Assembly (NCBI GenBank): GCA_026388545.1
Contig: JAPLJS010000071.1
Coordinates: forward strand, 1-64,000
Length of the DNA: 64,000 nucleotides
Reading direction: 5' to 3'
DNA from: Deltaproteobacteria bacterium
Lineage (GTDB): Bacteria; Desulfobacterota; Syntrophia; Syntrophales; UBA2185
Part shown: positions 7,989 through 31,423 of the stretch, piece after piece
Layout: each line of letters starts with the position of its first letter
How positions within the stretch are numbered: the first letter of the stretch is position 1
Translations under genes and position numbers: made by a program
Notes under the pieces: generated by a model
Databases searched by the model: none
What the model was told of the DNA's origin: nothing
Seen by the model: the letters and a program-made list of their open reading frames with translations, nothing else

Positions 7989-8086
7989 TGGCGGAAGTGC
8001 ATGGGAATCGAACCCACCCGAGACGGTTTTAGCGCCCCGCACTGGATTTGAAGTCCAGGAGGCCCACCAGTGACCTTGGCACTTCC
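7989..8086 (-). tRNA. selC: tRNA-Sec (anticodon TCA)
   Basis: On the minus strand the 98-nt sequence begins GGAAGTGC and ends GCACTTCC-G-CCA with encoded CCA, giving the 8-bp acceptor stem typical of tRNA-Sec. The anticodon arm CTGGACTTCAAATCCAG contains TCA, a long variable arm follows (GCGGGGCGC...), and the T-arm has GGTTCGATTCC. It starts 6 bp after moeA on the same strand, so the two are probably co-transcribed. Its presence means the organism decodes UGA as selenocysteine, although I found no clear selenoprotein in the window. Confidence 0.97.
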
Positions 8087-16323: not shown

Positions 16324-19134
16324 ATGAATTATATAAAAATAAAGGGCGCCTCCCAGCATAACCTTAAACATATCAACATTGATATCCCTCGAGATAAACT
16401 GGTTATTATAACCGGAGTCAGCGGATCGGGTAAGTCCTCCCTCGCCTTTGATACCATCTATGCCGAGGGTCAGAGACGTTACGTGGAGTCCCTGTCCACC
16501 TATGCCAGGCAATTTATCGGTCAGATGGACAAGCCGGACGTTGAATTCATCGAGGGCCTGTCGCCCGCGATTGCCATTGAACAGAGGACGGCAAGCCACA
16601 ATCCCCGTTCTACCGTGGGAACAGTAACCGAGATCTACGACTACCTGCGCCTTCTTTACGCAAGAACTGGAATTCCCCACTGCCAGCAGTGCGGAAGAGT
16701 GATTAAATCCCAGACTATCGACATAATGGTTGACAACATCCTTGCCTTTCCTGAAAAGACCAGAATCAGCATCCTCTCCCCCATCGCCAGAGGTAAAAAG
16801 GGAGAATTTCAAAAAGAACTGAAGAAACTGCAAAAGGATGGTTTTGTCCGGGTTCGCATCGATGGAGAACTCCGTGAAATAGGCGATGATATAAATTTGG
16901 ACAAAAATAAGCGCCACAGCATCGATGTCGTTGTTGACCGGTTGTTTATAAAGGAAGGGATCAGAAGGCGCCTCAGGGATTCCCTAGAGATTGCCGCACA
17001 CCTTTCCGATGGACTGGTTCGTATTGATGTTGCAGGGGGAGAAGAAGTTCTTTTCAGTGAGAAGTATGCCTGCCCTGACTGTGGCGTCAGCATGTCGGAA
17101 CTGGCTCCCCGGAATTTTTCCTTTAACAGCCCTTACGGCGCCTGTCCTGATTGTGACGGTCTTGGAACCAGAATGTACTTCGACGAAAATCTGGTCGTTC
17201 CCGATCGGGAACTTTCGATCCGGGAGGGGGCTATCGCCCCATGGGCAGGCCGGAGTTCCACGTATCATTTCCAGATGCTGGATGCTCTGTCCCAGCATTA
17301 TCATTTTGATGTCAACTGCCCCTTCAATCAATTGCCGAAAGAGATCCAGACAGTTCTTCTCTATGGTTCGGGAAACGAAATGATCAAGTTCTATCTTGAC
17401 AGAGGCGGCAGACGTTTTTTCTACAGCAAGCCTTTTGAGGGGCTCCTTAACCAGCTTGACCGGCGTTACCGGGAAACGAACTCAAATTCTGTAAGAATGG
17501 ACCTGGCACGGTATATTAACTTACAGGAGTGTCCTGCCTGTCATGGTTCACGTTTAAAGAAAGAAAGCCTGTCTGTCACCGTTGGGGATAAGAACATCTA
17601 TGAGTTATGCAGGCTGTCGATCAAAGAGTGCCTACAATTTTTTGAATCATTACCTCTGTCACGCCAGGAAGTCCTCGTTTCAGAAAGAATCCTCAAAGAA
17701 ATCAGAGAGAGACTGAAATTCCTCGTGGATGTAGGCATAGATTACCTCAGCTTGGATCGTTCATCGGGCAGCCTTTCGGGCGGCGAGGGTCAGCGCATCA
17801 GACTGGCGACCCAGATCGGATCAGGGCTCGTCGGTGTTCTTTATGTTCTCGATGAACCGACAATAGGTCTCCACCAGAGGGATAACGGCAGACTCATTTC
17901 CACTCTCAAACGCCTGCGGGATATGGGGAATACGGTCTTGGTTGTGGAACATGACGCAGCCATGATGATGTCTTCCGATTATATTATCGACATAGGACCC
18001 GGCGCGGGATTCGATGGTGGTGAAGTTGTCTTTCAGGGAACACCGGAAGAAATCTGTAAAAGCGATACATCACTGACAGGAATGTATCTCTCGGGGAAAA
18101 TGTCCATTCCCGTTCCTGAAAAGCGGAGATCATCACCAGAGAGGTTTATTCTCCTGGAAGGGGCCAGCGAACATAATCTCAAAAATGTAAACATCAAAAT
18201 TCCCATAGGACTTCTTACCGCGGTAACGGGGGTGTCCGGTTCCGGGAAAAGCACCATGATCATTGAAACCCTTTACAAAGCCCTTGCCCGGAGATTCAAC
18301 CACTATAAGGGCGGGATGGGAAAGATACGGCGGATTGTAGACATGGGAGGCATCGAAAGGGTCATCATGATGAATCAACAGCCTATAGGACGCACACCCC
18401 GTTCAAATCCGGTAACGTACACCGGTGTCTTTTCCCATATTCGGGATCTCTTCACCGGCCTTCCCGAATCGAGGATCAGGGGCTATAAGCCCGGCCGTTT
18501 CAGTTTTAATGTCAAGGGGGGTCGATGTGAGGCATGTGAGGGAAACGGCTTAATCAAAATAGAAATGCACTTTCTGCCCGATGTCTACGTGACGTGTGAC
18601 GTCTGTCGCGGGAAGAGATTTAATCTGGATACTCTTGAAATCAAATACAAGGATAAAAACATAGCGGGTGTCCTCGATATGTCTGTTAGCCAGGCATTGT
18701 ATTTCTTCGATAATATTCCCGCCATACGATCCAAACTTCAGCTTCTGTTCGATGTCGGTCTGGGTTATATCAGGTTAGGGCAGTCGGCAACAACCCTGTC
18801 CGGAGGTGAGGCCCAGCGGATAAAATTATCAAGAGAACTGGGAAAGCGAAGCAACAGCAACACCCTCTATATCCTTGATGAGCCTACCATAGGTCTCCAC
18901 TCGGCGGATATTCAGAAATTGCTGGATGTTCTTTTGAGATTGGTCGATATGGGTAACACCGTAGTGGTTATAGAACACAACCTGGATGTCATTAAATGTG
19001 CCGACCATATCATTGACCTCGGCCCTGAAGGGGGGCCTGGCGGAGGCCGAATCGTCGCATCCGGCACCCCTGAAGAGGTTGCTCGCGCAGAAGAATCTTT
19101 TACGGGCCAATTCCTGCAAAAAGTACTGCATTAA
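16324..19134 (+). CDS. uvrA: Excinuclease ABC subunit A
   Basis: A 936-residue damage-recognition ATPase of nucleotide excision repair. It has two ABC modules: Walker A GVSGSGKSS (near residue 36) and GVSGSGKST (near 638), signature sequences GSLSGGEGQR and [10 protein letters not shown], Walker B motifs [12 protein letters not shown] and [12 protein letters not shown], and zinc modules (CQQCGRVI; CPDCGVSMSE...[12 protein letters not shown]...CDVCRGKR). The ORF is full length. Its last 819 coding bases (from 18316) are repeated at 27360-28178; an island separates the two copies. Its 3' part may therefore be chimeric by recombination. Confidence 0.97.
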   Translation: MNYIKIKGASQHNLKHINIDIPRDKLVIITGVSGSGKSSLAFDTIYAEGQRRYVESLSTYARQFIGQMDKPDVEFIEGLSPAIAIEQRTASHNPRSTVGTVTEIYDYLRLLYARTGIPHCQQCGRVIKSQTIDIMVDNILAFPEKTRISILSPIARGKKGEFQKELKKLQKDGFVRVRIDGELREIGDDINLDKNKRHSIDVVVDRLFIKEGIRRRLRDSLEIAAHLSDGLVRIDVAGGEEVLFSEKYACPDCGVSMSELAPRNFSFNSPYGACPDCDGLGTRMYFDENLVVPDRELSIREGAIAPWAGRSSTYHFQMLDALSQHYHFDVNCPFNQLPKEIQTVLLYGSGNEMIKFYLDRGGRRFFYSKPFEGLLNQLDRRYRETNSNSVRMDLARYINLQECPACHGSRLKKESLSVTVGDKNIYELCRLSIKECLQFFESLPLSRQEVLVSERILKEIRERLKFLVDVGIDYLSLDRSSGSLSGGEGQRIRLATQIGSGLVGVLYVLDEPTIGLHQRDNGRLISTLKRLRDMGNTVLVVEHDAAMMMSSDYIIDIGPGAGFDGGEVVFQGTPEEICKSDTSLTGMYLSGKMSIPVPEKRRSSPERFILLEGASEHNLKNVNIKIPIGLLTAVTGVSGSGKSTMIIETLYKALARRFNHYKGGMGKIRRIVDMGGIERVIMMNQQPIGRTPRSNPVTYTGVFSHIRDLFTGLPESRIRGYKPGRFSFNVKGGRCEACEGNGLIKIEMHFLPDVYVTCDVCRGKRFNLDTLEIKYKDKNIAGVLDMSVSQALYFFDNIPAIRSKLQLLFDVGLGYIRLGQSATTLSGGEAQRIKLSRELGKRSNSNTLYILDEPTIGLHSADIQKLLDVLLRLVDMGNTVVVIEHNLDVIKCADHIIDLGPEGGPGGGRIVASGTPEEVARAEESFTGQFLQKVLH

Positions 19135-19163
19135 CACCTCTCTGTCGGAATTTAAAAAACCAC
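18305..19163. repeat. Direct repeat, copy 1: uvrA 3' end (left island boundary)
   Basis: Matches 27349-28208 without any indel through the coding part (constant offset 9044) and continues about 29 bp past the stop. By hand count the 819 coding bases differ at 31 positions (about 96% identity), of which 25 are synonymous. Identity begins in ATAA-GGCGGG and fades after AAAAAACCAC. Confidence 0.95.
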
Positions 19164-21899: not shown

Positions 21900-23432
21900 A
21901 TGAGAATCGGATACAGGTCTTTCGTCAATTGTATGTTTTTGTTTTTTTTGTTTATCAGCACAGCAAATGCAAGTATGGTTACCTTTGTCAAGGAATACAC
22001 CTACCAAGCGAGCGAAATTGATAGCAAGGTAAGCTGCCGGGCCAACGCAATGGAACAAGTAAAGCGGTTATTACTTGAAGAGCTTGGCACTTACCTGGAG
22101 AGTAAAACAGAAGTCAAGAATTTTCAGTTGACGCAAGACCAGATTACAGTTTTAACCGCAGGCATTGTCAGTGCCGAGATAGTTAGAGAAAAGTGGGATG
22201 GAGATAGCTATTTCCTTAAAGCAAAGATTACCGCTGACCCAAATGAAGTTGCTTTATCAGTAGATAAATTGCGAAAAGACAATGACAAGGTAAATGACTT
22301 AAATGAAACACGAAAGTTAGCAAATAAATATGCAGAAGAAATTAAATTGCTAAAAAAGGAACTGGAATCTGTACATAGTATCAAAACAGATCAACGTACT
22401 GAATCTACTAAAATAAAAGATTATAACAAGGCGATTGATGGATTAACTGCTAGTGATTTATATGCCAAAGGATATAGTCTATACACTGCAAAAAAATACA
22501 ACGGAGCTATAGCAAAATTTGGCGAAGCAATACGACTAAAACCTGATTATGATCAAGCATATAGAGATCGTGGTTTAATGTATTCTTTGGTTAATAACCA
22601 CCGGCAGGCAATTGAAAATTATAACAAGGCTATTGAGATAAACCCAGCAGATGCTAGCTCATACAATATGCGCGGAAGATCATATCGTTCTTTGGGTGAC
22701 AACCATAAAGCAATTGAAGATTTCGACAAGGCTATTAAGCTGAAGCCTAATTTTGGTGCTGCATACTATAACCGCGGGCTTACATATGATAAAATTGGCA
22801 ATGAACAAAAGGCCATTGAAGACATGAAAAGAAGTGCAGCATTAGGCTCTGGTCCACCAATACAATATCTTAAAAAGCGTGGTATCACGAATTGGCAGTC
22901 AGCGGCAGATCAATCGACTGAAACAACTAAGAATAGTATTCCCAATAATGATGCATTAACTGCCAGTGATTATTATAATAATGGGAAAAGTCTCTTTTCT
23001 GCTAAAAAATATGCCGAAGCTATAGTCCAATTCAGTGAAGCAATACGAAAAAAACCGGATTATGATCAAGCATATAGAGACCGTGGTTTAATGTATTCTC
23101 TGGTACACAATTACCAAAAGGCAATTGAGGATTACAATAAGGCTATTGAGATAAACCCAGCAGATGTTCTCTCATATAATAGTCGCGGAATATCATATCG
23201 CACTTTGGGTGACAGCATTTTAGCAATCGAAAATTTCGACAGAGCTATTGAGTTAAAACCTAATTTTGGTGCTGCATACTTCAATCGAGCGCTCGCATAT
23301 GAACAGTTGAGTAAAAAGCAAGATAAATTGCGTAATGAGCAACAGGCAATTGAAGATATGAAAAGTTCCGCCAAATTAGGGTTTGGTACAGCAAAATACT
23401 ATCTTAAAAAAGCAGGTATTGATTGGCAGTAG
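21900..23432 (+). CDS. Exported TPR protein with internal duplication
   Basis: A 510-residue protein: signal peptide (CMFLFFLFISTANA), an N-terminal domain of roughly 100 residues (SCRANAMEQVKRLLLEELGTYLE...DQITVLTAGIVSAEIVREKWDG) resembling the FlgT-N/LPP20-like domain seen in exported proteins, a charged coiled coil near residues 130-165, and two TPR blocks (about 182-300 and 350-480) with units such as YDQAYRDRGLMYSLV and AIENYNKAIEINPAD. The blocks are also alike at DNA level, so the second arose by a fairly recent internal duplication. AAAAGGAG precedes the start. Presumably it makes protein-protein contacts in the periplasm. Confidence 0.85.
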   Translation: MRIGYRSFVNCMFLFFLFISTANASMVTFVKEYTYQASEIDSKVSCRANAMEQVKRLLLEELGTYLESKTEVKNFQLTQDQITVLTAGIVSAEIVREKWDGDSYFLKAKITADPNEVALSVDKLRKDNDKVNDLNETRKLANKYAEEIKLLKKELESVHSIKTDQRTESTKIKDYNKAIDGLTASDLYAKGYSLYTAKKYNGAIAKFGEAIRLKPDYDQAYRDRGLMYSLVNNHRQAIENYNKAIEINPADASSYNMRGRSYRSLGDNHKAIEDFDKAIKLKPNFGAAYYNRGLTYDKIGNEQKAIEDMKRSAALGSGPPIQYLKKRGITNWQSAADQSTETTKNSIPNNDALTASDYYNNGKSLFSAKKYAEAIVQFSEAIRKKPDYDQAYRDRGLMYSLVHNYQKAIEDYNKAIEINPADVLSYNSRGISYRTLGDSILAIENFDRAIELKPNFGAAYFNRALAYEQLSKKQDKLRNEQQAIEDMKSSAKLGFGTAKYYLKKAGIDWQ

Positions 23433-24346: not shown

Positions 24347-24856
24347 ATGATCGCGCACACCATTAAATCTCTAATGAACATTAAAAAGATTCAAGTTTTT
24401 ATTGGTTTGGCGGCATTGTTTTTTGGAGTTGCAGTTTACATAATCCGTTCTCCTGGCCGCGTTTATTTTGTTCCGAAATATTTCTCTTATCTCCGGTTAC
24501 CCGACGATATCGTAAACGTCGTTAGAATTGTCGGAGGCAATCTCCCTGATTTTATCCATCCATTCGCATTCATATTGATAACAGCGGGATTGATATCTTT
24601 AGATAATAGAAAAACCCAGTTCTTTATTTGCCTGGGTTGGTTTCTTTTAGAAAGTTTTTTTGAATTGGGGCAACATTTCAAGGAAGCTTATCTGCTATTC
24701 ATCCCATCTTGGTTTGACAATATACCTATTTTGGATCATACAAAAAACTATTTTTTAAACGGCACATTTGATGTATTGGATATGCTTTCGTTTTTTGCGG
24801 GTACTGTTGCCGCATTTTGTGTACTATGGATTACTTCCAAAAGGAGGATGGAATAA
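24347..24856 (+). CDS. Four-TM membrane protein, unknown
   Basis: A 169-residue protein with hydrophobic segments at about residues 18-36 (VFIGLAALFFGVAVYII), 68-85 (FIHPFAFILITAGLISL), 90-107 and 140-160 (MLSFFAGTVAAFCVLWI). No family recognised. The ATG at 24347 has no close ribosome site; an internal ATG at 24374 is an alternative. It overlaps the next gene by one base (TAATG), so the two are translationally coupled. Its 3' end is duplicated at about 25819-25920. Confidence 0.65.
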   Translation: MIAHTIKSLMNIKKIQVFIGLAALFFGVAVYIIRSPGRVYFVPKYFSYLRLPDDIVNVVRIVGGNLPDFIHPFAFILITAGLISLDNRKTQFFICLGWFLLESFFELGQHFKEAYLLFIPSWFDNIPILDHTKNYFLNGTFDVLDMLSFFAGTVAAFCVLWITSKRRME

Positions 24857-25650
24857 TGAGGATCAACAAAGGTCTACTGATTTATGTTCGGATGCTGATT
24901 GTGGGACTTGTAGGTTTATTTGGAGTATTGACTATTATAGCGAGCGTGGAGAATCCACCGAAAAAGGATTATGTATGGGTCAAACCAAACGGAACAGGTC
25001 AAGATTATAACAGAGATAACTATGCCTGCATGCAAGAATCTCAGCAAAGAGTTTCTGAGTATTCTCGTGAAGGTCGTAGCGCCGCTTCGTCGAGTACGGT
25101 ACAAACCAACGAGACCTTGTATAATGCATGTATGAACGCTCGTGGCTGGTCGTTACAGGAGTATAAGTCAGAGGAGGACAAGGCGGCAGAAAAGGCGGCG
25201 GCAAAGAAGGCAATGGAAGCAGCAAAGAAGGCAAAGAAGCAAGCACGTGAAATCAGAAGGGACGGCAGTTTTATCGCCTATGACAACGGGACGGTTTTGG
25301 ACACGAGCACGAACCTGATGTGGGCAGCAAAGGATAACGGTATAGACATTGACTGGGGTGATGCCAAGGGCTATTGCGAAAATTATCGCGGAGGTGGCTA
25401 TATAGACTGGCGGATGCCGACGCAGGCTGAGCTCGCGACATTGAATGATGCGAATCAATCCCGACCGACACCATGCAATCCTAAATATAGCATACATATT
25501 GCGACAAAGTTGATTGATATTACCTGTTTCAGAGTATATGCATCTAAACAACTCCCCATCGGTGCTGAGAACTTCAATTTTTACGCAAGCAAAGGGGAGG
25601 GGAATTTCGTAGCCTCCACACACCGAGCACTCCCAGTGCGTGACGAATAG
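24856..25650 (+). CDS. Membrane-anchored DUF1566 (Lcl C-terminal-like) protein
   Basis: A 264-residue protein starting MRINKGLLIYVRMLIVGLVG; one N-terminal hydrophobic segment ends in TIIASV. Next comes a Cys-containing block (DNYACMQESQQRVSEYSREG...YNACMNARGW), an Ala/Lys/Glu-rich helix (residues about 110-135) and a C-terminal DUF1566 domain (DGSFIAYDNGTVLDTSTNLMW...WGDAKGYCENYRGGGYIDWRMPTQAELATL). This domain is common in exported proteins of deltaproteobacteria; its function is unknown. AAAGGAGG precedes the ATG. Its N-terminal half has a paralogue at 25923. Confidence 0.8.
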   Translation: MRINKGLLIYVRMLIVGLVGLFGVLTIIASVENPPKKDYVWVKPNGTGQDYNRDNYACMQESQQRVSEYSREGRSAASSSTVQTNETLYNACMNARGWSLQEYKSEEDKAAEKAAAKKAMEAAKKAKKQAREIRRDGSFIAYDNGTVLDTSTNLMWAAKDNGIDIDWGDAKGYCENYRGGGYIDWRMPTQAELATLNDANQSRPTPCNPKYSIHIATKLIDITCFRVYASKQLPIGAENFNFYASKGEGNFVASTHRALPVRDE

Positions 25651-25818
25651 GTTGTTTTGTTATTGGGTTTTTTGATCATTTTCTTTTGGGTGCTGGGCGG
25701 AGCCTTGGTCGCGGGGGAAAATATGGACCTGATCTTTACCAGACATAACTAATGGCCCAGTATGAGAATCTTCCCATCTACCGGAAGGTAATTTCTGAAC
25801 TAAAAAGGGGCATGATTT

Positions 25819-26230
25819 ATTTTTTATACGGCACCGTTGATGTATTGGATATGCTCTCAGTTTTTGCTGGTACTGTTGCCGTATTTTGTGTACTATTGAC
25901 CTTCAAAAAGGAGGATGGAATAATGAGGATCAACAAAGGTCTACTGATTTATGTTCGCCTGATGATTGTGGGACTTGTAGTTTTATTTGGTGTGTTGACT
26001 ATTATAGCGAGTGTGCCGAAACCGAAACCGACACCGACGCTAAGATGGTACAAGCCAGGCTTTACCCCTGAAGGTTTTGCAAAAGATAGATATGCCTGTC
26101 TAAAAGAATCTCAGCAAAGAGTTTCTGAGTATTCTCGTGAGGGTCGTAGCAGCGCTTCATCGAGTGCAGTAATAACAAACGATAACTTGTTTAATGCATG
26201 CATGAATGCTCGTGGCTGGATATTACAGGA
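25819..26230. repeat. Partial tandem duplication of 24752-25160
   Basis: From ACGGCAC through the 3' end of the four-TM gene and the first 100 codons of the DUF1566 gene, the sequence repeats at recognisable DNA identity. The shortened tail of the first gene (2 nt lost before AAAGGAGG) shifts frame and fuses into the following ORF. Confidence 0.85.
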
Positions 26231-27348: not shown

Positions 27349-28208
27349 ATAAAGGCGGGATGGGAAAGATACGGCGGATTGTAGACATGGGAGGCATCGA
27401 AAGGGTCATCATGATGAATCAACAGCCTATAGGACGCACCCCTCGTTCAAATCCGGTAACGTACACCGGCGTCTTTTCCCATATTCGGGATCTCTTCACC
27501 GGCCTTCCCGAATCGAGGATCAGGGGCTATAAGCCAGGACGTTTCAGTTTTAATGTCAAGGGGGGTCGATGCGAGGCCTGTGAGGGGAATGGTTTAATCA
27601 AAATAGAAATGCACTTTCTGCCCGATGTCTACGTGACGTGTGACGTCTGTCGCGGGAAGAGATTTAATCTGGATACGCTTGAAATCAAATACAAGGATAA
27701 AAACATAGCGGGTGTCCTCGATATGTCTGTTCACCAGGCATTGTCTTTCTTCGATAATATTCCCGCCATACGATCCAAACTTCAGCTTCTGTTCGATGTC
27801 GGTCTGGGGTATATCAGGTTAGGGCAGTCGGCAACAACCCTGTCCGGAGGCGAGGCCCAGCGGATAAAATTATCAAGAGAACTGGGAAAGCGAAGCAACA
27901 GCAACACCCTCTATATCCTTGATGAGCCTACCATAGGCCTCCACTCGGCGGATATTCAGAAATTGCTGGATGTTCTCTTGAGATTGGTCGATATGGGCAA
28001 CACCGTAGTGGTTATAGAACACAACATGGATGTCATTAAATGCGCCGACCACATCATTGACCTCGGCCCTGAAGGAGGTCCCGGCGGAGGCCGGATCGTT
28101 GCATCCGGCACCCCTGAAGAGGTTGCTCGCGCAGAAGAATCCATTACGGGCCAATTCCTTCAAAAAATACTGCATTAACACCTCTCTGTCGGAAATCAAA
28201 AAAACCAC
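27349..28208. repeat. Direct repeat, copy 2: uvrA 3' end (right island boundary)
   Basis: Second copy of 18305-19163. The left junction falls within GAATAAAGGCGGG, with unrelated AT-rich sequence before it; the right junction lies past the stop in GTCGGAA...AAAAAAACCAC. Confidence 0.95.
27360..28178 (+). pseudogene. uvrA: Truncated uvrA (C-terminal 272 codons)
   Basis: An uninterrupted frame equal to residues 665-936 of the UvrA upstream. It keeps the zinc module, signature [10 protein letters not shown] and Walker B, but lacks both Walker A motifs, so it cannot work as an excinuclease subunit. Only five residues differ from the full copy (Ser-to-His and Tyr-to-Ser in the SQALYF region, Leu-to-Met, Phe-to-Ile, Val-to-Ile). 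There are no stops or frameshifts, so either it is young or it was a functional allele when acquired. Confidence 0.9.
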
Positions 28209-28281
28209 AGAACTCTATCGTAATATATGATATATACATGGGGCAGGTTACGGACATTATACAGTATGGGTGTACGAAGAT

Positions 28282-29994
28282 ATGAAAATCATTTATCTGG
28301 CTGATATCCATGGAGACTTTGATAAACTGAATGATCTCCTGAACGAAACATTTGCCGATGTGTATATTATCTCCGGTGATCTGATCGATATCCCTTTCTA
28401 CAGTATGAATACCTCCATACGCTACCACGAACTGCAATCATATTTCCATGGGTTAAGACGAAAGATGTCAAGGGAAGATATGCTTATTGAGGATTTTGTC
28501 GATGATCTTTTAGAAAAGCCCGATATTCCCGACGATATACAGGAATCAGGAACCCAATACCAGGAGTACACGATCAGAGCCCGCAGGGTTATGCAGCAAA
28601 AATATAAGGTATTAGGAAGCATTATCTCCATGAAACAGAGATCGCGGGTTTTCTGCCTTCCGGGAAATTATGATATGGATCTTAAATATACGGCTTTGCA
28701 TGAGCATGACCTGCACTTGCATTGGTATCAACTGGAGGATTTGAGGATTTGCGGTTATGGCGGAGCGGCCATATGGACGCCTGGGATCCCTGAAAGGTAT
28801 GTCGTTCATTCCCAGGAAAAAATGAAGTACCATGACAGGGACAATGAGATGTACCACTTTTTCAAGGCGATAAATCCGCACATTATTGTAACCCATCAGC
28901 CTGCATACGGAATCCATGATCAATTGACTTCAGGTGGATCGATCGGATCTACGGCGCTGCGCAGTTACTGTGAAGACAATTCGGTGATGATGTGCCTGAC
29001 GGGCCATATCCATCAACATTGGGGCGCTCAGCTTGATGAGAATACCCTGTACCTTAACCCATCGAATTTCGGAGAGGTGACCTTAACATCCGGGAATGTC
29101 GCGGAGGGCGGATTTTATTATTCTATTAACGTAGAGGCTGAGCAGGTACGGGGGATTATATTCAAGAAATTCTATAACGGGAGGATTTATGACGTTGCCG
29201 ACTATCATATCAATAATGGCAAATTAATCAGAGAGATAATAGACCCGGATAGATACAACGCCCTAGAGGCGGGGAAGAACTATGATGAAAAGGATATTAA
29301 GGATTCTCACATACCTGAAGTCACATTGTATAATGATATAAAGCAGTTTTACAGGAAATTCCAGACCCAGGAAACGGAGGAACGGCTTAACGCTTTAGAG
29401 GATATCACGTATCTGATCGAAGATAAACTGAAAGCCGATATTGCAATGGACGTTATGGGCTCTGTTAATTTCGGCATATCGCAGTCAGATTCGGATATAG
29501 ATGTCGTCCTTTATCTGCGGTGTGATAATAAATACATGCAATGTAACGGAAAATGTGTCGGCGGCAGTGAGGTGTGCGACTATCTGAAAAACGCAGAGGA
29601 GATGATCGCGGAAATCCTTAAGGATAAATTTGACTACCATCTTCTTGATTACGTTGATCTTAACCGTGTTGAAGAAAGTATACGGGAAAAGAATTATGAG
29701 AGTGCAATTCTGCAGCGTTTTGTGTTTTACAGATCACTATGCCGTCCCATAAACTACCGGGTAATCGCCCCGACAGAAGACATGCTCAACAAGGATATGA
29801 TGCTCCGTAAGGAGATTGAGGGGAGTCTCCAAGTATATTTTAAGATATTTGTTACCACCTCTCGGCATATAAGATCGTTCATGAAATACGAGTCCCGTCT
29901 ATCGGATTTAGGAATAAAACTGCCCACCTGGCTAAGGGAAAAAGTAAAGCTTTATCTGGGTGAATCGAAAGGGGAATATGTTAGTTCGCCGTGA
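28282..29994 (+). CDS. Metallophosphoesterase-nucleotidyltransferase fusion protein
   Basis: A 570-residue two-domain protein. The N-terminal part is a calcineurin-like phosphoesterase: YLADIHGD, SGDLID, PGNYD, THQPAYG and GHIHQHWG supply the two-metal site in family order. The C-terminal part (about 390-500) is a polymerase-beta-type nucleotidyltransferase with GSVNFGISQSDSDIDVVLYL, the GS...DxD motif, followed by a helical region. A Cys-rich loop (CDNKYMQCNGKCVGGSEVC) follows the NTase motif. The ATG at 28282 is preceded by GGGTG; GTG at 28270 is possible. It might add and remove a nucleotide or process RNA ends; the substrate is unknown. It directly follows the truncated uvrA. Confidence 0.8.
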   Translation: MKIIYLADIHGDFDKLNDLLNETFADVYIISGDLIDIPFYSMNTSIRYHELQSYFHGLRRKMSREDMLIEDFVDDLLEKPDIPDDIQESGTQYQEYTIRARRVMQQKYKVLGSIISMKQRSRVFCLPGNYDMDLKYTALHEHDLHLHWYQLEDLRICGYGGAAIWTPGIPERYVVHSQEKMKYHDRDNEMYHFFKAINPHIIVTHQPAYGIHDQLTSGGSIGSTALRSYCEDNSVMMCLTGHIHQHWGAQLDENTLYLNPSNFGEVTLTSGNVAEGGFYYSINVEAEQVRGIIFKKFYNGRIYDVADYHINNGKLIREIIDPDRYNALEAGKNYDEKDIKDSHIPEVTLYNDIKQFYRKFQTQETEERLNALEDITYLIEDKLKADIAMDVMGSVNFGISQSDSDIDVVLYLRCDNKYMQCNGKCVGGSEVCDYLKNAEEMIAEILKDKFDYHLLDYVDLNRVEESIREKNYESAILQRFVFYRSLCRPINYRVIAPTEDMLNKDMMLRKEIEGSLQVYFKIFVTTSRHIRSFMKYESRLSDLGIKLPTWLREKVKLYLGESKGEYVSSP

Positions 29995-30016: not shown

Positions 30017-31321
30017 TTACGGAGCTTTTCCGCCGTTGTCAACGAGTGCTTTCACCGCCTCGAGGCCGTATGGCGAACCCTCCTCAATGGCCTTTAACAC
30101 CGTACCGCCGCCTGTGAAGAAATAGTATTTCGAATTATCCAGCGTCGATAAATAAAGGCCGGGGCACAGATTTTTAAACTCCTGAAGCGTATCCCCGCCT
30201 CCGTAGAGTTTATGTGCTGCCACATTCTGATCGATTTTGCTATCGAGGGCCGCAGAGCCTTCGTTAAAATACGGCGTATATCCCATAACAGCATTAACAA
30301 AAATGGTTTTTGCTGAGTTCAGCGTATCTGATACCTCCGGATCTTCGAACGATTCTTTTGCAATATCAAGGATATAAGGAAGTTTCGCACCTTTTTTGAA
30401 CTCCTTTATCGACCTGATCCTGTATTTCCCCTCAACCTTTCCTTCCATGGTATCCGATTCATACACATACGGAAGTTCCAGTATTTTGTGCTGTTTCTTG
30501 TCCATCTCGACGAGATTCCCGGCAGCTTCGATATCCTCCTGTTCAATACCGCTGATCGATATATTATACTTCGCACAAAGATAGGTATTATAAATGATGC
30601 CGCCGAGGATCAATTTGTCAACTTTCTTATAGATTTCGTTGAGGGGACCGATCTTTGTATTATATTTTGAACCTGCCACGACGGAGATGAACGGCCTTTC
30701 GGGCTGCAGAACCTGCGAAAGATTCTGTATCTCCTTTTGCATGAGATATCCCGCAAACGATGGGAGATACTTCGTTATATGATAGGTGGAGACGTGCGGC
30801 TGCCAGGAGCCGAAGGCATCGTTCACGAAGACATCGGCCAGGCCTGCCAGTTGGCGTGCGAAGTCGTCGCTGTACTCCGTTTTTGACTCTTCTCCCTGGA
30901 ACCATCTCGTATTCGGAAGGTATATGGCGCCGATCCTTTTTTCTCTCAGATTTTTTACGGCAAGATTTATCGAGGTGTCGATGCTTTTTATTCCTTCATC
31001 ACCTTCCGGCCTGAACGTTGGGCAGTATATCTTTGTATGAAGTTTGCGCTCCAGATATTCGGCAATTGGTTCCACCGATGTTGATTTATCTACTTTAATT
31101 TTGCCTGCTTTGTCCCGCGGCCTTCCGATATGCGTCATGATGATCGGTCTGCCGCCCCTTTCGACAATATTGAAGATGGTTCCAATGGTCTGATCTATTC
31201 TGAACGGGTCTTCGATGGCTCCTTTTTTAACAACATTATGGTCAACACGCAACAGGACAATTTTATCTTCTACATCGGCATTCTGTAAGAGTGGAAGTTT
31301 GGGATCAAGTTGTTGTTCCAT
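30017..31321 (-). CDS. pgk: Phosphoglycerate kinase, divergent
   Basis: A 434-residue protein with PGK architecture: VLLRVDHNVV (usually DFNVP), RIDQTIGTIFNIVERGGRPIIMTHIGRPR, FVNDAFGSWQPHVSTY, PFISVVAGSKYNTKIGPL (usually GGAKVSDK), FVNAVMGYTPYFNEG (usually NGPMGVFE) and GGGDTLQEF...FFTGGGTVLKAIEEG. The overall order is preserved but many normally invariant positions differ and the chain is about 40 residues longer than typical. AGGGGAAAGGGGA precedes the ATG at 31321. It may be a lineage-specific PGK or a paralogue with altered role; no gapdh or tpi lies nearby. Confidence 0.8.
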   Translation of the reverse strand: MEQQLDPKLPLLQNADVEDKIVLLRVDHNVVKKGAIEDPFRIDQTIGTIFNIVERGGRPIIMTHIGRPRDKAGKIKVDKSTSVEPIAEYLERKLHTKIYCPTFRPEGDEGIKSIDTSINLAVKNLREKRIGAIYLPNTRWFQGEESKTEYSDDFARQLAGLADVFVNDAFGSWQPHVSTYHITKYLPSFAGYLMQKEIQNLSQVLQPERPFISVVAGSKYNTKIGPLNEIYKKVDKLILGGIIYNTYLCAKYNISISGIEQEDIEAAGNLVEMDKKQHKILELPYVYESDTMEGKVEGKYRIRSIKEFKKGAKLPYILDIAKESFEDPEVSDTLNSAKTIFVNAVMGYTPYFNEGSAALDSKIDQNVAAHKLYGGGDTLQEFKNLCPGLYLSTLDNSKYYFFTGGGTVLKAIEEGSPYGLEAVKALVDNGGKAP

Positions 31322-31423
31322 GGCATTCCCCTTTCCCCTGACAATTTGCATCGATAGTAAGGATTTTTTCTGAAAATTACAAGATAAATTAATTCGTGAA
31401 TAAGGAGAACGGAATTATTTTTC

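Follow-up and report, generated by a model that had tools for sequence, protein, structure and literature searches.

Proteins in which a nucleotidyltransferase (NTase) is fused to a hydrolase are a known kind, and the described examples (GlnD, Cca and SpoT-like enzymes) tend toward regulatory or repair switches. Among the metallophosphoesterases (MPEs), the His of the GNH[D/E] motif of the class III phosphodiesterases binds phosphate, and this residue was reportedly identified by Keppetipola and Shuman, in a paper cited in PMC10547211, as a determinant of 2',3'-cyclic phosphodiesterase activity. The motif of the class III cyclic-nucleotide phosphodiesterases reads in full D-Xn-GD-Xn-GNH[E/D]-Xn-H-Xn-GHXH (PMC4222275). 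An MPE-based version of the NTase-hydrolase fusion is without a named family in the libraries searched (Pfam, NCBIfam, PHROGs and PADLOC), and no description of such a protein was found in the literature searched, which comprised journals open without subscription.

The fusion gene described here lies in a window of 64,000 nucleotides (the whole stretch of DNA that was analysed), from a 3.28 Mb assembly whose named relatives are Deltaproteobacteria/Syntrophaceae MAGs. The earlier note on this DNA had read in one protein a complete calcineurin-like phosphatase site and a polymerase-beta-type nucleotidyltransferase with a GS...DSDID motif. This was borne out in both parts, as a single frame of 570 aa holds the two halves and Pfam families match each of them. 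The features of the gene are the following:

28282..29994, + strand: MPE-NTase fusion gene, 570 aa, one open frame from the ATG at 28282 to the stop at 29994
28282..29016, + strand: calcineurin-like MPE core, residues 1-245 (PF00149, E=1.1e-9; ligand conservation)
28405..28629, + strand: helical insert in the MPE, residues ~42-116, three helices (AlphaFold2 model, pLDDT mostly 77-93)
28669..28671, + strand: Tyr130 codon, in the GN-Y-D motif of the MPE (residue-130 comparison across the family)
29113..29238, + strand: beta-strand region at the end of the MPE half, residues ~278-319 (from the model; kept in stand-alone MPEs of 340 aa)
29302..29991, + strand: NTase half, residues 341-570, palm and C-terminal helical bundle (PF22600; AlphaFold2)
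29458..29502, + strand: NTase signature GSVNFGISQSDSDID, residues 393-407, with catalytic D405 and D407 (motif comparison)
29536..29577, + strand: Cys-containing insertion, residues ~419-432, not conserved (homologue alignment)
29647..29649, + strand: D456 codon, third acidic residue of the NTase triad (present in 57/57 intact and 9/9 degenerate members)

An alternative in-frame GTG start at 28270 is possible; the homologue alignments begin at the Met of the ATG at 28282. The full-length AlphaFold2 model of the 570-aa protein had a mean pLDDT of 79.7 and a pTM of 0.72, and the linker between the two halves (residues 338-353) was poorly defined, with pLDDT <50.

The score of residues 1-245 against PF00149 exceeds the gathering score, and the ligand set of the calcineurin-like superfamily (D-x-H, GD, GN, H, GHxH) is complete in the form of D8, H10, D33, N129, H205, H242 and H244. 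All of these ligands are kept in the 75 family members examined, save the N-terminal ones absent from one truncated copy; the loss of metal ligands in most homologues, which the earlier note had named as evidence against its reading, was thus not seen. The single 570-aa sequence matched no chain in the PDB, and a profile built from 35 homologues matched MPPED2 only (E=4e-5), which is also the best fold match of the MPE half. The nearest solved structures to the MPE are phosphodiesterases or related two-metal enzymes, namely MPPED2 (E=4e-7), GpdQ, Mre11 and LpxH. The class III phosphodiesterase motif is carried neither by the 570-aa protein, which has GNY-D, nor by any of the 57 members with an intact NTase, residue 130 being Tyr in all of them. 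GNHD is found only in members of a derived clade (described below), with His at residue 130 in 11 of 16: four of the nine with a degenerate NTase and all seven stand-alone MPEs. The PADLOC candidate model PDC-S10 also matches the MPE core (residues 118-264, E=2e-17), probably through general MPE similarity; a role in anti-phage defence was set aside, this MPE-region match being the only one and the neighbours including no conserved defence genes.

In the C-terminal part, residues 351-477 match nucleotidyltransferase families in Pfam, the match to MTPAP-like_central (PF22600) being the stronger and that to NTP_transf_2 the weaker. The former has E=2.5e-5 with the full protein as query and 2.2e-6 when the domain is scanned by itself, in which case it exceeds the gathering score. 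PF22600 was matched by 43/43 of the members scanned. The motif GSxxxGx5SDxD at residues 393-407, D456 as the third Asp, and the palm topology of the model together give the pattern of the DNA polymerase-beta superfamily (G[GS]...DxD followed, on a later strand, by a third acidic residue). G393, S394, G398, S404, D405, D407 and D456 are invariant in the 57 intact members, including distant ones at ~30-35% identity, and since all of these homologues keep the whole triad, the motif is far beyond chance. Modelled alone, the NTase half reached a pLDDT of 88 and a pTM of 0.85. Its Foldseek matches were weak and mixed (DrrA, MNT, Cid1, LpCdnE and GlnE; best E=7.6e-3), and because of this weakness no AMP-transferase relationship was established. 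By sequence, the best relatives of the palm are poly(A)/terminal uridylyl transferases, with Cid1 matched in the PDB at E=0.17. The Cys-rich loop to which attention had been drawn (~residues 419-432) turned out to be an insertion that varies between homologues: 51/57 intact ones have a gap at column 423, C425 is Cys in only 28/57, and only C432 is widely kept (54/57). A zinc site at this loop was rejected, the loop not being conserved.

A search with the single protein found matches in 44 of 100 relatives. Across the class, 60 of the 155 genomes have matches, as do 12 further genomes elsewhere in a phylum sample of 395; 75 family members, all from Desulfobacterota genomes, were fetched and aligned, and 57 of these have an intact NTase triad. 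The fusion is conserved with both sites intact, and its NTase is linked exclusively to the MPE. A search of the 155 class genomes with an NTase profile returned fusions and fragments only, with no separate NTase gene, so that the other finding which the earlier note had named as evidence against its reading, the two halves existing as unrelated separate genes, was not seen either. Two members that appeared to be stand-alone MPEs without a partner (L063 and L095) are intact-type genes split in two. Short remnants of the NTase half were also observed in two genomes (L104 in G124 and L105 in G081), which suggests recent decay of fusion genes there. At a matched MPE identity of 0.45-0.55, identity in the NTase core was 0.48 in intact pairs versus 0.27 in degenerate pairs, indicating a stronger constraint on the core when the motif is intact; where the core is degenerate, the C-terminal helices are still partly constrained. 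Plasmid and phage records contained no match to the fusion family, and a mobile or phage origin was rejected on these grounds.

The search for this domain order and for conserved neighbours that had been recommended was successful in its first part, the fusion being present in many anaerobic Desulfobacterota. In the second, the neighbours of the intact form differed between lineages: the comparison revealed no conserved operon across genera, and such an operon was rejected. For the same reason no acceptor, operon partner or pathway could be pinned to the intact form. Directly upstream of the fusion gene in the window lies an 860-bp 3' piece of uvrA (27349-28208), which is duplicated from 18305-19163 with 95.9% identity, the complete uvrA being located at 16333-19083. 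The ~8 kb between the uvrA copies is flanked by them as direct repeats, as if inserted by recombination, and contains two tandem part-copies of a small secreted/lipoprotein-like gene (24749-25160 and 25818-26230, 82% identical DNA). A link of the fusion to uvrA/uvrB was discarded, as the upstream piece is a local duplication in one genome and a uvrB-like gene occurs in four loci only, at varying distance. Other observations in the window include a TPR-repeat protein (21900-23432) with an internal duplication (22436-22789 versus 22949-23302, 80% identity), a selenocysteine tRNA gene (7989-8086, - strand) and a divergent phosphoglycerate kinase homologue (30017-31351, - strand), which has a strong Pfam PGK match and lies far below the matched NCBIfam equivalog cut-off.

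Sixteen members form one clade (FastTree support 0.987, UFBoot 97) in which the NTase has been lost. Nine of them have a degenerate NTase core that has lost D405 (L026-L031, L033, L036 and L039), and seven have no NTase at all (L032, L034, L035, L040 and L078-L080). The direction of change, a loss of the NTase, is argued from the motifs, which are intact and homologous in the distant groups as well as in the main ones, and not from the MPE tree, whose root and order of branches are provisional. Since the MPE persists where the NTase is dead or deleted, the NTase is not indispensable to it.

The derived clade is also strictly associated with a second gene. In all 15 derived loci with a visible downstream side, the MPE gene is directly followed by a GAF-GGDEF gene of the same orientation, the ends of the two genes usually overlapping or nearly abutting; two of these loci (L032 and L079) have a partner frame that the assembly shows in several pieces. 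In G059, the sixteenth genome, the MPE runs to the contig edge and the partner starts ~140 bases from the end of another contig of 3.4 kb, which is consistent with an assembly break between them. Across the 155 class genomes, the partner was matched at >350 bits in exactly the 16 with a degenerate or stand-alone MPE and in 0/139 others. The next matches were longer proteins of at most 349 bits, apart from two of ~380-400 aa at no more than 255 bits, and the two longer GGDEF proteins examined (L100 and L101) have a canonical GGEEF. As the genomes are related, the association does not represent 16 independent events; it arose once and was kept in several genera and families.

The active-site motif of the partner is GADEF (GADEI in one), which departs from the GG[D/E]EF of diguanylate cyclases, and in the stand-alone group an alignment to known cyclases indicates that the guanine-contact positions also look changed. 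Four Vibrio fischeri cyclases had sharply weaker effects once the second Gly of GGDEF was replaced by Ala (PMC11575326), and the partner is therefore probably no normal diguanylate cyclase; its identification as an ordinary one was disfavoured on account of the GADEF motif. The pair of stand-alone MPE and GAF-GADEF protein was observed next to glycogen-like genes in four loci of one genus (L034, L035, L032 and L040), where the neighbours, recognised by eye from sequence and not by profile, are glycosyltransferase, GH57-like, glycogen synthase-like and debranching-like genes. Glycogen metabolism as a general role was rejected, since this context is limited to one genus and to stand-alone MPEs.

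One possible explanation, which we favour tentatively and hold to be short of probable, is that the fusion is a single-chain writer-eraser enzyme and that in the derived clade control passed to a degenerate sensor of the cyclase type. The C-terminal NTase would take a nucleotide from an NTP and attach it to an acceptor (a protein, a small molecule or a nucleic acid), and the two-metal MPE at the N-terminus would remove it again as a phosphodiesterase; one chain would then add and remove, for which GlnD and GlnE use other hydrolytic modules. The constant function, or output, would be that of the MPE. In the derived lineage the NTase would have lost its first catalytic Asp and then been deleted, the MPE pocket would have changed (Tyr130 to His in most), and the GAF-GADEF protein encoded directly downstream, probably no active diguanylate cyclase but a regulator that binds a ligand, would have taken over control. 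In favour of this reading are the NTase triad and MPE ligands kept down to ~33% identity, the occurrence of the NTase in fused form only (fragments aside), the stronger constraint on an intact core, the phosphodiesterases and related two-metal enzymes nearest to the MPE, the weak fold matches of the NTase to the AMP-transferases DrrA, MNT and GlnE, and the derived clade with its strictly associated GADEF partner. The variable neighbours of the intact form, the weakness of the Foldseek matches and the persistence of the MPE after NTase loss count against it. We consider this the most economical reading of the mechanism, with a putative chemistry and substrate; a common target of the two sites, the direction in which each reaction runs and a regulatory function of the partner are likewise what we infer. 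A more specific form, in which the fusion is a regulatory enzyme of an undescribed, bifunctional kind that both makes and erases a nucleotide mark or messenger, its making half having been swapped for a separate, catalytically altered GAF-GADEF protein, appears rather doubtful.

A close second to the writer-eraser enzyme, given the survival of the MPE after NTase loss, is that the MPE alone works as an enzyme, the NTase fold being mainly a nucleotide-sensing or target-binding regulator that the GAF-GADEF protein replaced in the derived clade. Independence of the MPE from the NTase is what this scenario also predicts: the MPE is conserved in all members, NTase catalysis is lost in nine and the whole domain gone in seven, the substitute resembles a sensor and has a disabled motif, and the C-terminal helical region is partly conserved in the degenerate group. 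We nevertheless regard it as unlikely, as a GS..D.D..D triad that has stayed invariant in 57/57 members despite their long divergence implies that catalysis is under selection in the main group.

The earlier note had offered reversible modification or RNA-end processing as the role of the fusion. Two conserved activities of opposite direction fit the former, and Tyr130 in 57/57 members weakens the latter. Repair of RNA 3' ends, in which the MPE would take off terminal phosphates and the NTase re-add nucleotides, in the manner of the CCA-adding enzyme and its HD phosphodiesterase, is plausible as far as the NTase goes, its palm being closest to poly(A)/uridylyl transferases. It is further suggested by the preference of MPPED2-type MPEs for 2',3'-cAMP (PMC10547211) and by the 2',3'-cyclic phosphodiesterase activity of the HD domain of the E. 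coli tRNA nucleotidyltransferase, as cited in PMC4222275. However, the His tied to this activity is Tyr in every NTase-intact member, no RNA-binding domain was recognised in the protein and no RNA-repair genes among its neighbours, and the GAF-GADEF switch is left unexplained; we therefore judge this scenario quite unlikely. Least probable of all is a second-messenger enzyme whose NTase makes and whose MPE degrades a signalling nucleotide, a GGDEF-type cyclase having replaced the NTase in the derived clade: an intact NTase and a GGDEF-type partner exclude each other at this locus, which makes such a replacement attractive, LpCdnE is among the weak fold matches, and one derived genus carries the pair beside glycogen-type genes, glycogen debranching in Streptomyces being under c-di-GMP control (PMC9530166), but the glycogen context is limited to that genus, no effector or receptor gene is conserved nearby, and the GADEF motif, predicted inactive for c-di-GMP, together with the altered guanine contacts of the stand-alone group, counts against a simple replacement of a synthase.

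As an MPE-based addition to the known fusions that is widespread in syntrophic Desulfobacterota, the protein makes a concrete candidate for a switch of a new sort. With its strictly linked partner, altered MPE pocket and dead or deleted NTase, the derived clade leads to testable predictions on the role of the NTase and on what replaces it, and a swap of the making half would be a natural experiment on the rewiring of such switches.

As the earlier note had also concluded, no named system matches the MPE-NTase fusion. The kinase and ligase domains of Pnkp/Hen1-type RNA repair are absent from the protein according to Pfam, and none were recognised by eye among the recurrent neighbours; the PADLOC scan returned no CD-NTase model of the CBASS type, and the intact form has no conserved neighbour. 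The MNT antitoxins and DrrA-type AMP-transferases are among the best, though weak, fold matches of the NTase, but here the NTase is always fused to an MPE, and no HEPN-like partner gene was recognised among the recurrent neighbours. Cid1, TUT7 and MTPAP, the best sequence-level relatives of the palm, differ in having a PAP-associated domain, which was not found here, and the match covers ~70 residues only. The bacterial Cca likewise joins an NTase to a phosphoesterase, the latter an HD domain instead of an MPE, and the NTase of the fusion has a terminal-transferase/MTPAP-like palm outside the CCA/PolyA_pol Pfam families; the PolyA_pol-type head domain of CCA-adding enzymes and bacterial poly(A) polymerases is absent from its Pfam matches. 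With MPPED1/MPPED2 and the class III metallophosphodiesterases (Rv0805, GpdQ and SpdA) the protein has the two-metal MPE fold in common, the class III enzymes having GN-His-Asp/Glu where GN-Tyr-Asp is found here, and the fusion adding a helical insert and the NTase. No GlnD or GlnE family domains were detected by Pfam and NCBIfam scans. GlnD and GlnE, like the activities proposed here, combine a nucleotide-adding NTase and an opposing activity in one chain, and GlnE is among the weak fold matches; the removing module is an HD domain in GlnD, a second NTase in GlnE and an MPE in the present fusion.
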